Positions 1-17,828 of a DNA stretch of 64,000 nt are shown in pieces. The position numbers and the translations under genes are program-made. The stretch spans positions 115,112 to 179,111 of the forward strand of contig NZ_JAFNJS010000009.1 in assembly GCF_019024325.1 (NCBI RefSeq). The letters are read 5' to 3'. Origin of the DNA: Falsiroseomonas tokyonensis (GTDB lineage: Bacteria > Pseudomonadota > Alphaproteobacteria > Acetobacterales > Acetobacteraceae). The number at the start of each line of letters is the position of its first letter. Positions within the stretch are counted from its first letter, which is position 1. The notes under the pieces were generated by a model. The model had not been told where the DNA came from and did not search any database. It saw nothing but the letters and a program-made list of their open reading frames with translations.

Positions 1-10
1 CGGCGGGGTT

Positions 11-748
11 TCAACGTGCTGCGCGGGCCTCCGCCACCAGCCGCTCCAGCGTCGGCAGGTCCACCGCGCCGGGCACCAGGGTGCGGCCGATCACGAGCGC
101 CGGCGTGCCCTCGATGCCCAGCGTCTGGGCCAGGCCGAGATTGGCCTCGATCCGCGCGGTGACCTCCGGATGGTCCATCTCCCGCCGCAGCCGCGCCCAG
201 TCGAGGCCCGCGCGTTCCGCCTGCTGGCGCAGCACCGGCTCGGTCGGCTCCGTCCGCAGCCCCATCAGCGCGTCATACAGCCGGCCATACCCACCCTGGC
301 GCTGCGCCGCGAGCAGGGCGCGGCTGGCCAGCACGCTGTTCGGGCCGAGGATGGGCAGGTCCTTCATCACCACGCGGAGGTTGGGGTCGCGGCGGATCAG
401 CGCCTCCATGGTCGGGTGCAGCTGCTTGCAGTAGCCGCAGCGGGCATCGAAGAACTCCACCAGGGTCACGTCGCCCTGCGGATTGCCCTTCACCGGGTCC
501 GCGGCATTGCGGAACAGCGCCGCCTCCTGCGCCTGGATGGCTTCCCGCCGGGCGGTGGCGCGCGCCGCCTGCTCCGCCGCCTCCAGCCCGCCGAGGGCCT
601 CGCGCAGGATATTCGGGTCCTCGCGCAGCGCCTGGCGCAGGATCTCGACGATCTCGGCCCGCTGGGCGGGGGTGAAGCCCTGGGCCACCGCCGCCAGGGG
701 CAGGGCCAGGACCAGCAGCAGGGCGGCGGCCCGGATCAATCGGCGCAT
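11..748 (-). CDS. DsbA-family thioredoxin-fold periplasmic oxidoreductase
   Basis: A 245-residue protein. An N-terminal signal peptide (MRRLIRAAALLLVLALPLAA) is followed by a helical stretch and then a thioredoxin/DsbA fold. The redox motif CGYC lies near residue 107 in FFDARCGYCKQLHP, and the cis-proline loop is GTPALVIG near the C-terminus. Family members exchange disulfides in periplasmic proteins as oxidase or isomerase; the CGYC motif and long N-terminal helix resemble the ScsC/Com1-like branch more than classical DsbA. I chose the ATG at 748 because a GAGGA ribosome site precedes it and the signal peptide then sits at the N-terminus. The frame stays open upstream through a 24-bp tandem repeat, which would add meaningless NAAPRQV octapeptides. 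It lies 104 bp downstream of an M48 protease gene on the same strand, so the two may be co-transcribed in an envelope quality-control unit. The substrate is unknown. Confidence 0.88.
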   Translation of the reverse strand: MRRLIRAAALLLVLALPLAAVAQGFTPAQRAEIVEILRQALREDPNILREALGGLEAAEQAARATARREAIQAQEAALFRNAADPVKGNPQGDVTLVEFFDARCGYCKQLHPTMEALIRRDPNLRVVMKDLPILGPNSVLASRALLAAQRQGGYGRLYDALMGLRTEPTEPVLRQQAERAGLDWARLRREMDHPEVTARIEANLGLAQTLGIEGTPALVIGRTLVPGAVDLPTLERLVAEARAAR

Positions 749-8373: not shown

Positions 8374-10416
8374 CTACTCGACGGCCTCGCGCCGATCCAC
8401 CAGGCGAACGCCGCCCTTCGGGATGCGGATGTCGTCGATGAAGTCCTGCATCGCCTGGCTGGGCGCCGTGGTGAACTTGGAGACCAGCCAGATGGTGAAG
8501 AAGGAGAGCGGCACGCCGACGATGCCGCCCGAGATGTTGTTCAGCGTCCAGAGCCGCGCCACCGTCCGGCCGCGCAGCACCACGCTGTCCGTCGTCAGGA
8601 TCAGCTGGCCGAACCACGACATGGCGCCATCCGTGATCTGCCCCGCATTGGCGACCAGGGCCGCGGCATAGGCCTTGAGCTCCGCATCCGCGGCCGGCAG
8701 CGCGGCGGTCTGCCGGGCGGCGGCCAGGATCGCCTCCTTCGTGCCGAAGAGCTCGACGAAGGACAGGCCGTAGAACTCGGTCCAGACCAGGTAGCCGGTG
8801 GTGAAGATATAGCCCACCGCCATGCCCCAGCAGGCCGCGGCATTGGTCGTCTTCTTGTACCAGACGCCCATGACCAGCGCGGCGAAAAGCCCCGCCGCGG
8901 CGATGGAGAAGGCCCAGGCCACCAGGAACAGGATGTCCGCCCCCGCATTGCCCGCCGTCCAGGCCGCCAGGATGGCCACCAGGATGAGCAGGACGCGGGA
9001 GATGATAAGGCGCTTGGCCGTCGGCGCGTTGCGGTCGATCATCTTGTAGTAGACGTCGTGCGACAGCGCATTGGCGAGTGCCAGCAGCAGCCCGTCCGCG
9101 GTGGAGAGCGCGGCCGCCAGGCCGCCCGCGGCGACCAGGCCCGCGATGACATAGGGCAGGCCCGCGATTTCCGGCGTCGCCAGCACGACCACGTCCGGAT
9201 GGATGCGGAATTCGCCCCATTGCACGATGCCGTCGGTGTTGACGTCGACGATGTTCACCCACGGCACGCCGTAGGGGGAGACGATCTGCCAGTTTCGGAT
9301 CCACTCCGGCAGCGCCGCGATCGGCTGGCCGATGACGGTCTGGTAGATCTCCAGCTTGCCGAAGGCCGCATAGGCCGGGGCGGTGAAGTAGAGCAGGAAG
9401 ATGAAGAACAGCGACCAGGCGACCGACTGCCGCGCCTCACGCACCGAAGGCGTGGTGAAGTAGCGCATCAGGATATGCGGCAGGGCGGCGGTGCCGACCA
9501 TCAGGCAGAAGACGAGCGCGAAGAAGTTGAAGGCGGCGGACCAGGAGAAGGCGCCGTTGGGGCCGATGAAGGGCGCCGTGTGCCAGCCCGTCACCCCAGG
9601 TGGCGGCAGCATCCCCGCGGCGCGGAAGCCCTGCTCCAGCCCCTCGATCCGCTCCAGCGCGAAGCCGTACATGATCTGCGGCACCGGCACGCCGGTGAGC
9701 TTCACCGACATCAGCACCGCCGGGATCAGGTAGGCGATGATCAGGATGATGTACTGCGCCACCTGGGTCCAGGTGACGGCGCGCATGCCGCCCAGCATGG
9801 AGCAGACCAGGATGCCGGCGAGGCCCAGGAAGACGGCGGTGAGGAAGGAGACTTCCAGGAAGCGCTGGGTGATGATGCCCACGCCCACGATCTGCGCCAC
9901 CACATAGACGAAGGAGGCGGTGATCAGCACGATGACGCCGAGCGAGCGCGCGACATTGCCGCCGAAGCGGGCGCCCAGGAAGTCCGGCACCGTGTACTGG
10001 CCGAATTTCCGGAGGTACGGCGCAAGCAAAATCGCCACCAGCATGTAGCCGCCGGTCCAGCCTAGGATAAACGCCAGCCCACCATAGCCGAGCGCGTAAA
10101 GGCTGCCCGCCATGCCGATGAAGCTGGCGGCGGACATCCAGTCCGACCCCGTCGCCATGCCGTTGTAGATCGCCGGCACCCGCCGCCCGGCGACATAGTA
10201 TTCGGCCACCGCCGCAGTGCGGCTGATGATGCCGATATAGGCATAGACGCCGATGGTCAGGACGACGAAAAGATAGCCGATGATGCGGTCCGGGACGCCC
10301 ATCTGCTCGAGGATCGCGAGCAGGACGACGAAGACGGCGAAGCCGCCGGTATAGCCGGCGTAGATCTTGCCAAGACTGGCGATGAAGGGGTCCTTGCTCC
10401 CCGCGCTGGTGGACAT
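8374..10416 (-). CDS. Sodium:solute symporter, large subunit (VC_2705/TIGR03648-like SSS family)
   Basis: A 680-residue polytopic transporter of the sodium:solute symporter family. Around 13 hydrophobic segments are visible. Family landmarks include AEYYVAGRRVPAIYNGMATGSDWMSAASF near residue 70, GGYMLVAILLAPYLRKFGQYTVPDFLGARFG, and GGLAAALSTADGLLLALANALSHDVYYK in the sodium-binding half. It is longer than acetate permease ActP (about 550) because of loops around residues 370-410 and 570-600. The gene starts 4 bp after a DUF4212 gene, the invariant small-subunit partner of this subfamily. The complex sits in the inner membrane and probably imports a small carboxylate; the substrate is not determined by sequence. 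The ribosome site AGGACTG precedes the ATG. Confidence 0.9.
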   Translation of the reverse strand: MSTSAGSKDPFIASLGKIYAGYTGGFAVFVVLLAILEQMGVPDRIIGYLFVVLTIGVYAYIGIISRTAAVAEYYVAGRRVPAIYNGMATGSDWMSAASFIGMAGSLYALGYGGLAFILGWTGGYMLVAILLAPYLRKFGQYTVPDFLGARFGGNVARSLGVIVLITASFVYVVAQIVGVGIITQRFLEVSFLTAVFLGLAGILVCSMLGGMRAVTWTQVAQYIILIIAYLIPAVLMSVKLTGVPVPQIMYGFALERIEGLEQGFRAAGMLPPPGVTGWHTAPFIGPNGAFSWSAAFNFFALVFCLMVGTAALPHILMRYFTTPSVREARQSVAWSLFFIFLLYFTAPAYAAFGKLEIYQTVIGQPIAALPEWIRNWQIVSPYGVPWVNIVDVNTDGIVQWGEFRIHPDVVVLATPEIAGLPYVIAGLVAAGGLAAALSTADGLLLALANALSHDVYYKMIDRNAPTAKRLIISRVLLILVAILAAWTAGNAGADILFLVAWAFSIAAAGLFAALVMGVWYKKTTNAAACWGMAVGYIFTTGYLVWTEFYGLSFVELFGTKEAILAAARQTAALPAADAELKAYAAALVANAGQITDGAMSWFGQLILTTDSVVLRGRTVARLWTLNNISGGIVGVPLSFFTIWLVSKFTTAPSQAMQDFIDDIRIPKGGVRLVDRREAVE

Positions 10417-16194: not shown

Positions 16195-16288
16195 ACCTGC
16201 ACCCGCCGAAGGCGGGTGAGCGGCCGAACGGCCGCCGCCGCATGTGCGGCGAGCCAAGCGCGCGGAGCGCGCGCCCGGCGCTTGAGGG
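16195..16288. repeat. Chain of four hairpins with dispersed element (copy 1)
   Basis: After the acyl-CoA synthetase stop come four perfect hairpins in a row: ACCCGCC-GAA-GGCGGGT (16201-16217), GCGGCC-GAAC-GGCCGC (16220-16235), CGCCGC-ATGT-GCGGCG (16236-16251) and GCGCGC-GGA-GCGCGC (16258-16272). The last is embedded in a 41-nt block, 16248-16288, that recurs at 50691-50731. The two copies agree outside the hairpin core and differ inside it while both remain paired. Confidence 0.8.
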
Positions 16289-16308
16289 ATGGATGGGCGA
16301 ATCTTTTC

Positions 16309-16337
16309 TTGCAAGGCGCGCGCAGCCTCCCCATCAT
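16309..16337 (+). promoter_or_regulatory. Candidate sigma-70 promoter of the 25-codon mini-gene
   Basis: TTGCAA (16309-16314), a 17-bp spacer and CATCAT (16332-16337) each match four of six consensus positions. Transcription would begin near 16344, giving a leader of about 30 nt and an RNA of about 175 nt ending at the terminator 16489-16518. Confidence 0.45.
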
Positions 16338-16357
16338 CTTGCCAGTCGTCAACAACC

Positions 16358-16374
16358 GAAAGGAGGTGATCCAG
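16358..16374 (+). promoter_or_regulatory. Extended Shine-Dalgarno, 17-nt complement of the 16S 3' end
   Basis: GAAAGGAGGTGATCCAG is the complement of the 16S rRNA 3' end as known for alphaproteobacteria (CTGGATCACCTCCTTTC), far longer than a normal 4-6 nt ribosome site. GGAGG lies 7 nt before the GTG start at 16374, the ideal spacing. Confidence 0.8.
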
Positions 16375-16451
16375 TGTCTCATGGTATCAATGCGGGCGTC
16401 CGTTCCGCGGCCTGGATCATCGCCACTGCCAGCGCGGCGGCGAGTCACTAG
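16374..16451 (+). CDS. 25-residue peptide gene with extreme ribosome-binding site
   Basis: A GTG-started frame encodes 25 residues beginning VSHGINAGVRSAAW and ending ATASAAASH before TAG. The peptide is alanine/serine-rich, has one tryptophan and no clear membrane helix or signal peptide. The case for a real gene comes from its setting. It has a candidate promoter at 16309-16337, a ribosome site with 17-nt complementarity to the 16S 3' end, and a strong intrinsic terminator 37 bp after the stop. Together they form a self-contained transcription unit of about 175 nt. It could instead be a small RNA whose anti-16S segment is the functional part, or a leader controlling the MFS gene at 16590. 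No codon repetition typical of amino-acid attenuators is present. I do not recognise a family. Confidence 0.6.
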   Translation: MSHGINAGVRSAAWIIATASAAASH

Positions 16452-16488
16452 GCTCAAGGCGGCAACGCCACAGGATCCATGCAAAAGG

Positions 16489-16518
16489 CCCCGGCGGAGT
16501 GATCCGCCGGGGTTTTTT
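16489..16518 (+). terminator. Strong rho-independent terminator of the mini-gene
   Basis: A perfect 10-bp stem CCCCGGCGGA / TCCGCCGGGG with a GTGA tetraloop is followed by six T residues. It is the most convincing intrinsic terminator in the window. It ends the 16.3-16.5 kb unit before the MFS gene. Confidence 0.92.
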
Positions 16519-16589: not shown

Positions 16590-17828
16590 ATGTCGTCCCT
16601 CGCCGCGCTGAACGCGATGAACTTCTTCATGGCCGATGTCCGGGACGGGCTCGGCCCCTTCCTCGGCGTTTTCCTGCAGCAGCAGGGCTGGCAGCCGGGC
16701 GCGATCGGCCTGGTGATGACGCTAGGCGGCATCGCCGGCATGGCGGCCACCACGCCGCTCGGCCTGCTGGTGGACCACACCACCCATAAGCGCGCGCTGC
16801 TGGTCATCGCGGCGCTGGCCATCATCGCCGCCTGCTCCATCAACTATTTCGCGCCGCTCTTCGCCGTGACGGCGGTGGCGCAGGCGGTGGCGGGCATTGG
16901 CGGCGCGCTGGTCGCGCCCTGCATCGCCGCCATCACCCTCGGCCTGGTGCGGCAGCAGGGCTATGCGCATCAGCTCGGCCGCAACGAGGCCTATAACCAC
17001 GCAGGCAATGCCTCCGCCGCCGCGCTGGCCGGGCTGTTCGGCTGGTGGTTCGGGCTGGTCGCAGTCTTCGTGCTGATGGCCGCCATGGCGCTGGCCGCCA
17101 TCGTCGCGGTGCTGCTGATCCGCCCGCGCGAGATCGACCACGCAGCCGCGCGCGGCCTGCACGAGGCGGCGCCGGAGCCGCTGCTGCCGGCGCTGCTCGG
17201 ATCCCGCCCGCTTCTGGTGCTGGCGGTGACGCTGATGCTGTTTCATCTCGCCAATGCGGCGATGCTGCCGCTGCTGGGCCAGGCGATGGTGGCGCGCAAC
17301 CCGGATGTGGACCCGGCGGGCTATACCGCCGCCACCGTGATCCTGGCGCAGGTCACGATGATCCCGATGGCGCTGCTGGCCGCGCGGCTGGCCATGCGCC
17401 GCGGCTATTTCATGGTGTTCCTCATCGCCCTCGCCGCGCTGCCGCTGCGCGGCCTGCTGGCGGGCTTCGTCGCGCATCCGCTGGCCTTGGTGCCGGTGCA
17501 GATGCTGGACGGCGTCGGCGCCGGCATGCTCGGCGTCGCCGTGCCCGGCCTCGTCTCCCGCATCCTCGATGGCAGCGGCCATGTCACGGCAGGGCTGGCC
17601 GCGGTGATGACGCTGCAGGGCATCGGCGCGGCGCTCAGCGCCACGCTCGGCGGCTTCGTCGCGCAGTACTACGGCTATGGCGCCGCCTTCCTGGTGCTGG
17701 CGGGCGTCGCCGCCGCGGCGCTGCTGCTGTGGCTGGCCGCCAGCGCCATCCTGCGTCCGGCTGGCGCCGCGCAAGCTGCCTGCCCCGAAGCTGCCTGCCC
17801 CGAAGCTGCCTGCCCCGAAGCTGCCTGA
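16590..17828 (+). CDS. MFS transporter
   Basis: A 412-residue major facilitator with about 12 hydrophobic segments. The N-terminus MSSLAALNAMNFFMADVRDGLGPFLGVFLQQQGW and the GLLVDHTTHKRALLV loop 2-3 motif resemble drug- and metabolite-exporting 12-TM carriers. The substrate is unknown. I chose the ATG at 16590 because it begins the first conserved amphipathic segment; an upstream ATG at 16545 would add an arginine-rich, poorly conserved tail. The last residues are three AACPE pentapeptides encoded by a 15-bp tandem repeat, placing extra cysteines on the cytoplasmic tail. A promoter with a consensus -35 begins directly at the stop codon, so the following gene is probably transcribed separately. 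Confidence 0.85.
   Translation: MSSLAALNAMNFFMADVRDGLGPFLGVFLQQQGWQPGAIGLVMTLGGIAGMAATTPLGLLVDHTTHKRALLVIAALAIIAACSINYFAPLFAVTAVAQAVAGIGGALVAPCIAAITLGLVRQQGYAHQLGRNEAYNHAGNASAAALAGLFGWWFGLVAVFVLMAAMALAAIVAVLLIRPREIDHAAARGLHEAAPEPLLPALLGSRPLLVLAVTLMLFHLANAAMLPLLGQAMVARNPDVDPAGYTAATVILAQVTMIPMALLAARLAMRRGYFMVFLIALAALPLRGLLAGFVAHPLALVPVQMLDGVGAGMLGVAVPGLVSRILDGSGHVTAGLAAVMTLQGIGAALSATLGGFVAQYYGYGAAFLVLAGVAAAALLLWLAASAILRPAGAAQAACPEAACPEAACPEAA
17775..17827 (+). repeat. 15-bp tandem repeat encoding AACPE, 3.5 copies
   Basis: The unit GCTGCCTGCCCCGAA repeats perfectly three times (17775-17819) plus an 8-bp partial. It lies in frame at the 3' end of the MFS gene, so copy-number change would alter tail length without a frameshift. 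Confidence 0.95.

Follow-up and report, generated by a model that had tools for sequence, protein, structure and literature searches.

A candidate structure-controlled mini-mRNA with an extended Shine-Dalgarno sequence in Falsiroseomonas tokyonensis and other Alphaproteobacteria

Introduction

Three published systems, two of them with a short open reading frame (ORF), help to place the locus that we report here. Among the literature searched, the closest mechanism in print appears to be that of the duf1127_1 leader of S. meliloti, which we liken to our unit by mechanism. According to the accessible portion of that report (PMC12218461), the leader contains an upstream ORF (uORF) of 29 amino acids that is proposed to monitor ribosome availability, and the second half of this uORF is dispensable. 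As in our unit, the ribosome-binding site of the short ORF pairs with the ORF's own early codons. The S. meliloti element, however, is a cis-acting leader with a proposed Rho-dependent attenuation, whereas the unit described here is free-standing and has its own terminator.

Pos19 of Rhodobacter sphaeroides is alike in a different respect: the accessible text (PMC5036791) describes a transcript that is short and independent, has a terminator and carries a small ORF that is translated. Unlike our unit, its ORF is 150 nt long, it is RpoE-dependent, it regulates mRNAs without needing the ORF, and that part of the text mentions no full-length 16S complement. In Staphylococcus aureus, finally, the helix between Shine-Dalgarno (SD) and antiSD is lengthened towards the start codon, as it would be here. 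In the part of that work available to us (PMC13009471), the solved aur mRNA complex has two extra pairs, against up to 17 pairs in our unit, and extended SDs are found in many genes, whereas the 14-mer AAAGGAGGTGATCC of our unit occurs a single time in its own 6.16-Mb assembly.

The locus also resembles Rfam family RF01867 (CC2171), a Caulobacter sRNA whose Rfam type is 'Gene; sRNA'. The literature searched held no recognised description of a CC2171 ORF and no description of the function of the family, and its mentions of RF01867 were confined to tables. In the accessible main text of a Caulobacter map (PMC4117421) the string '2171' is absent, and the accessible parts of PMC10117765 and PMC5082802 contain nothing on an RF01867-like unit. 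Here, we show how the F. tokyonensis locus compares with these systems and with its own relatives.

Results

A compact unit with a 17-nt complement to 16S rRNA

The window, that is the whole stretch of DNA analysed, comprises 64,000 nt of the F. tokyonensis genome. The features of the unit, all on the plus strand, are the following:

16309-16337, plus strand: candidate promoter, weak, with TTGCAA at 16309-16314, a 17-nt spacer and CATCAT at 16332-16337
16350-16514, plus strand: region aligned by a covariance-model search to the full length of Rfam RF01867 (CC2171)
16350-16357, plus strand: leader CAACAACC 5' of the SD, partly conserved by column counts in 180 units
16358-16374, plus strand: extended SD, exactly complementary over 17 nt to the 16S rRNA 3' end, by sequence, congener 16S and duplex prediction
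16365-16374, plus strand: 5' strand of helix A (3' half of the SD and the G of GTG), pairing with 16412-16421, by covariation
16374-16451, plus strand: ORF of 25 codons with GTG start and TAG stop, by sequence and by frame maintenance in relatives
16380-16388, plus strand: 5' strand of helix B in codons 3-5, with one bulged T, by fold, Rfam alignment and covariation
16412-16421, plus strand: 3' strand of helix A, CTGGATCATC, sharing 9 of 10 letters with 16S CTGGATCACC
16474-16481, plus strand: 3' strand of helix B, directly 5' of the terminator, by fold, Rfam alignment and covariation
16489-16518, plus strand: intrinsic terminator, a 10-bp stem with six T, by sequence

The original prediction, made from the sequence of the window, was of a 17-nt complement to the 16S rRNA 3' end placed at an ideal distance before a GTG. 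The complement is real. The F. tokyonensis draft assembly gave no match to its own 16S, so the 3' end was taken from congeners: it reads GGCTGGATCACCTCCTTTCA, was matched in 2 of the 15 genus genomes and is the same in both. The letters at 16358-16374, GAAAGGAGGTGATCCAG, are complementary to it over 17 of 17 nt. This 17-mer is present in all 15 genus genomes, which confirms its conservation (17 places, two of which are the 16S of G007 and G003). The layout needs one correction: the GTG at 16374-16376 is not set apart from the complement, the G of GTG being itself the 17th complementary base.

The 11-mer AAGGAGGTGAT occurs at four places in the assembly, this site included. When up to two mismatches are allowed, the 14-mer matches the window twice, at the exact site and at a 2-mismatch site at 8727, where 0.19 matches are expected; two matches were reached by 2 of 100 shuffles of the window. 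The predicted energy of the duplex with 16S is -32.4 kcal/mol for the 17 nt, -15.0 for GAAAGGAGG alone and -9.2 for AGGAGG.

The ORF that had been predicted from the GTG is confirmed at 16374-16451 and reads VSHGINAGVRSAAWIIATASAAASH. The predicted terminator is confirmed as well, with stem arms at 16489-16498 and 16503-16512, a GTGA loop and then six T; the terminator scan reported this hairpin, a palindrome, for the minus strand alone, and the plus strand was judged by eye. A home-made finder detected terminators in 120 of 167 relatives and at 7 of 119 control places taken 700 nt downstream; it detected none in the other 47 units. Shuffled versions of 16345-16518 fold less strongly than the sequence itself (z -4.43, none of 200 as strong). 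The claim of a compact small unit, in which complement, 25-codon frame and terminator stand together, is thereby upheld. The promoter fared less well. Its TTG at 16309 is aligned in 15 of 15 genus units (TTGC in 13), which speaks for it; a scan of the unit gave no match to the sigma-70 consensus, and the -10 CATCAT (16332-16337) is weak and not conserved among genus units. Just 5' of the unit, the GC-rich stretch 16250-16292 has 12 other matches in the same genome (25-43 nt, 86-96% identity) and looks like a dispersed repeat.

On the best reading, the unit would be a free-standing gene whose product, a small mRNA, measures about 165 nt, and it would represent here an alphaproteobacterial family overlapping Rfam CC2171.

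Relatives across the Alphaproteobacteria

The RF01867 model aligned whole to the window (1-159 of 159), including its long-range helix and terminator, with 60.6 bits and an E value of 8e-12; this lies under the gathering score of 75. The two share the SD, the start region, the long-range helix B and the terminator; they differ in that CC2171 is filed as an sRNA, yet our comparison points to a translated ORF. At E<=0.01, RF01867 was found in 69 of 289 class genomes, and above the gathering cut-off in 9.

Of 385 class genomes, 79 have the exact pattern AAAGGAGGTGRTCNNRTGTC, and two copies were seen only in G046; a reversed-pattern control gave none among the matches listed from these 385. In a sample of the phylum, it was found in 74 of 398 genomes, namely in 74 of 135 alphaproteobacterial genomes and 0 of 263 from other classes (class tallied by hand). 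At least 120 stretches carry the pattern, and those listed include Sphingomonas, Novosphingobium, Methylobacterium, Bosea, Brevundimonas, Azospirillum and Roseococcus.

Most units come from pattern searches in which the SD core was preset, in some of them together with RTGTC (the 79/385, organism-name and phylum-sample scans), so that the conservation of those letters is no evidence in these sets. The Rfam-derived set is less constrained: its 30 best matches were read, together with one place in each of 20 further genomes. Units with short flanks and duplicates were dropped before counting, which reduced 181 units to 177 and, in the larger set, 229 to 224 and then to 167 nonredundant units.

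A start codon and frame that appear to be maintained

An ATG or GTG stands at the fixed place in all 29 other best-scoring Rfam-derived units (L029-L058), a search biased that way because the Rfam consensus reads GUG at the start. Of 20 weaker Rfam-only hits, 12 have the SD, and 10 of these 12 have an NTG at the place (3 ATG, 2 GTG, 5 TTG); L220 and L223 have the SD and no NTG there, and the remaining 8 hits, weak, probably chance matches without a recognisable element, were excluded from this count.

The frame that follows is kept within narrow bounds. The ORF has 18-26 codons in 161 of 177 units, whereas the other two frames fall in this range in 19 of 174 and 31 of 176. The 29 closest disjoint pairs are free of indels over 1,899 nt of ORF but have 45 over 1,929 nt past the stop, 41 of which are not multiples of three; substitutions per nt in the same pairs are 0.046 in the ORF and 0.110 past the stop. 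Extending the comparison to 42 pairs gives 5 indels in the ORF versus 92 after the stop. With 60 pairs, where alignment is poorer, there are 30 ORF indels (19 not multiples of three) versus 177, and with 70 pairs that include distant ones, 29 of 85 ORF indels and 63 of 306 post-stop indels are multiples of three. The scarcity of ORF indels could also stem from the fixed spacing of helix A.

The position of the stop was compared with helix B in 95 units chosen for their helix B core. It lies at least 14 nt before the 3' strand of the helix in 93 of the 95, and at 14-19 nt in 15, whereas in the other frames the stop falls less than 10 nt before this strand, or beyond it, in 34 of 94 and 46 of 94. 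A distance of 14-19 nt is about the stretch covered by a terminating ribosome. Across all units, the positions of stop and helix B showed no correlation (rho 0.13, P 0.22); a weak one appeared once the 18-codon units were left out (rho 0.22, P 0.045).

The comparison of relatives thus indicates selection on the start codon and the reading frame, as would be found in a coding sRNA or small mRNA. Given the fixed NTG, the ORF length confined to one frame, the few ORF indels and the stops clear of helix B, the RNA looks translated; in view of the first two of these and of the kept frame, a purely antisense role seems less likely than translation.

The ORF also comes in variant forms. Sphingomonad loci (L053, L089, L098 and others) have an 18-codon version that begins MSHGS, and several of them have, some 102-106 nt downstream, a CACTTCC as a possible pairing partner of the SD. 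Six loci (L066, L138, L171, L185, L267 and L268, with Azospirillum among the lineages) have ORFs of 55-59 residues behind the same extended SD; by eye these show an apparent signal peptide or lipobox, and their best helix B candidate has 4-5 bp.

Two covarying helices, mutually exclusive in a nested fold

The sides of helix A co-vary between relatives (GATCCAG/CTGGATC, GATCCTG/CAGGATC, GATCCCG/CGGGATC, GATCCGG/CCGGATC). All seven bases are paired in 41 of 107 nonredundant units, from which the sphingomonad 18-codon group was left out, against 20.3 with permuted arms; none of 300 permutations reached 41, and with the region shuffled the pairing was seen in 3 of 107. Partners sought at +80 to +140 showed no excess (1 of 107). 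Helix B has seven bases paired in 81 of 167 units, against 34.8 with permuted arms (maximum 47 in 200) and 15 with shuffled sequence, and two control arms adjoining it gave no excess pairing in the same 167 units. Both helices were first noticed on the same units that were later used for testing.

An alignment of 52 units (A2), selected for TCTCAT after the start, a detected terminator, a length of 140-178 nt and an ORF of at most 27 codons other than 18, served as a further test. Here, helix A and helix B each beat 500 of 500 shuffles for paired cells, for changes on both sides and for covariation score, a margin that relatedness alone can produce over such shuffles. When the partners are slid, the covariation score falls from 0.175 to at most 0.110 for B and from 0.265 to at most 0.122 for A. 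For pairs with a double change, A2 did not outdo the shuffles, of which 142 of 500 (B) and 164 of 500 (A) reached its count. The RNAalifold consensus of A2 holds neither helix; it has the terminator and a 4-bp GAGG/UCUC hairpin instead. The SD GAGG and the post-start UCUC that form this hairpin (columns 18-21 and 32-35) are invariant in the 52 units and would leave the start codon in a possible loop; as they do not vary, they offer no covariation evidence.

In a nested fold, helices A and B are mutually exclusive, although together they might form a pseudoknot. Prefixes of the RNA of 75-130 nt (counted from 16347) are predicted to form helix A with a probability of 0.54-1.0. At 135 nt the prediction is reversed, with helix B at 0.80, helix A at 0.02 and the start free at 0.97; the start is then free at 0.42 at 160 nt and at 0.88 at 168 nt, and helix A is missing from the minimum-energy fold of the full RNA. 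In the same 95 units chosen for helix B, helix A exceeds 0.5 in 31 nascent forms and in 12 longer forms that include the helix B strand; helix B exceeds 0.5 in 76 of the longer forms. A co-transcriptional fold switch is therefore a clear prediction for the RNA of the window and a weaker one for the family. The arms of helix A are predicted at -14.3 kcal/mol, so that the 16S tail, to judge from the duplex energies of the 17 nt and of GAAAGGAGG, could displace it.

Discussion

A proposed structure-controlled mini-mRNA

We propose, with a probability of about 0.58, that the unit is a free-standing, structure-controlled mini-mRNA that acts through ribosome recruitment. Its elements (SD, NTG start, maintained frame, two helices, terminator) are supported by comparison of sequences. 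As frame and folds appear to be kept and the peptide does not, recruitment of the ribosome may be the point, and we infer that the RNA works by engaging ribosomes and not via a specific peptide. The original interpretation, an unusual 16S complement that could drive exceptional expression, sequester ribosomes or act as an anti-16S RNA, is supported in part, all three readings being possible, sequestration included; the Rfam match, the alphaproteobacterial spread and the two covarying helices had escaped it.

We envision the following sequence of events. During transcription, the internal near-copy of 16S would form helix A and in this way mask the start codon together with the 3' half of the SD. 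Once the strand before the terminator has been made, helix B would displace helix A and free the start. The 16S tail could then land on the exposed GAAAGGAGG and invade the hairpin, and the short ORF, by briefly holding a ribosome, could report or buffer free 30S subunits; alternatively, a ribosome on the short ORF might protect the RNA for a role in trans. A more specific form of this proposal makes the unit an alphaproteobacterial ribosome-capturing RNA, a translational counterpart of 6S RNA, armed by the A-to-B switch and titrating or sensing free 30S subunits via a disposable ORF behind a near-perfect start site; we offer it as a speculation.

Seen comparatively, then, what Rfam lists as an sRNA family appears to consist of translated mini-mRNAs that have a full-length SD. 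That the frame is kept and its peptide is not suggests that the function lies in translation as such, and if the RNA does buffer or sense ribosomes, it would represent a novel type of global control.

Alternative readings

The family could still be what Rfam says it is, a non-coding sRNA in which the ORF is incidental and the 5' end forms base pairs, either to 16S rRNA or to targets. Besides the Rfam type, a pN/pS of about 1 and the covarying helices with their terminator would fit such an RNA; an NTG at a fixed place whose first base may be A, G or T, a narrow ORF length confined to one frame and 29 closest pairs without an ORF indel fit it poorly, and we consider it doubtful. The codons, for their part, weigh against the peptide. 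In 56 pairs pN/pS is 1.06 (21 pairs with 18-codon ORFs give 1.64, the remaining 35 give 0.93), so these pairs show no purifying selection on amino acids; with 0.91 and 0.70 in the two other frames, the true frame has no coding signature of that kind, and the peptide as a conserved product was set back by this test. The original prediction had made its case depend on conservation of complement or peptide: conservation is seen for complement and frame but not for the sequence of the peptide. GGCGAGTCAC is retained in 14 of 15 genus units, even in L020-L023, where the stop has shifted upstream of it. A functional micropeptide (N-terminal M/V-S-H, often C) that requires a very strong SD would account for the recurring first residues, for the resemblance among 18-residue sphingomonad peptides and for the few lineages in which ORFs of 55-59 residues, signal-peptide-like by eye, follow the same SD. 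The search pattern, however, fixed part of those first codons in most units, and the recurring N-terminal codons are also the covarying strand of helix B. With the codon test against it, we regard this reading as unlikely.

Could the unit instead be a leader or attenuator of the gene that follows? In the window this is a same-strand MFS transporter gene at 16590, and the S. meliloti duf1127_1 leader, in the accessible part of its description (PMC12218461), offers a precedent with its translated uORF and its pairing between RBS and early codons. Elsewhere the neighbours do not agree. The downstream ORFs compared were 115 of at least 100 codons, chosen for their length and codon composition, and they are split between the unit's own strand (55) and the opposite one (60). 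No common neighbour was found among them (the commonest Pfam family accounts for 6) and hence no conserved downstream gene such as a cis leader would have; within the available flanks, no DUF1127-like motif occurred up to 1.3 kb from 167 units, by a regular expression. The Pfam tally and this motif scan set the neighbouring-gene leader back, and the strong terminator also speaks against it, which makes it very improbable. Least probable of all is a type I toxin-like mRNA, in which a structured message would encode a toxic small peptide. Type I toxin mRNAs have long-range pairing, pairing of the SD and a short ORF, and the unit resembles them in all three, but its peptides are neither conserved nor, by eye, uniformly hydrophobic.

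Setting of the relatives

Upstream of the units, one same-strand ORF family recurs at 15 loci, including the window, where the member is an AMP-binding enzyme, and a second same-strand family at 43 loci, which are sphingomonad where named and have the 18-codon version. Some units are on plasmids: that of L136 matches 7 plasmid records with no annotated feature beneath the match, in a gene table that is incomplete, and on plasmid AZO_p3 of Azospirillum lipoferum the match is located between annotated genes. A phage origin was set aside, the L182 unit being without a match in 50,697 phage records. Two IMG/VR contigs, L274 and L275, contain the SD-start pattern and are possibly prophage flanks or host DNA.
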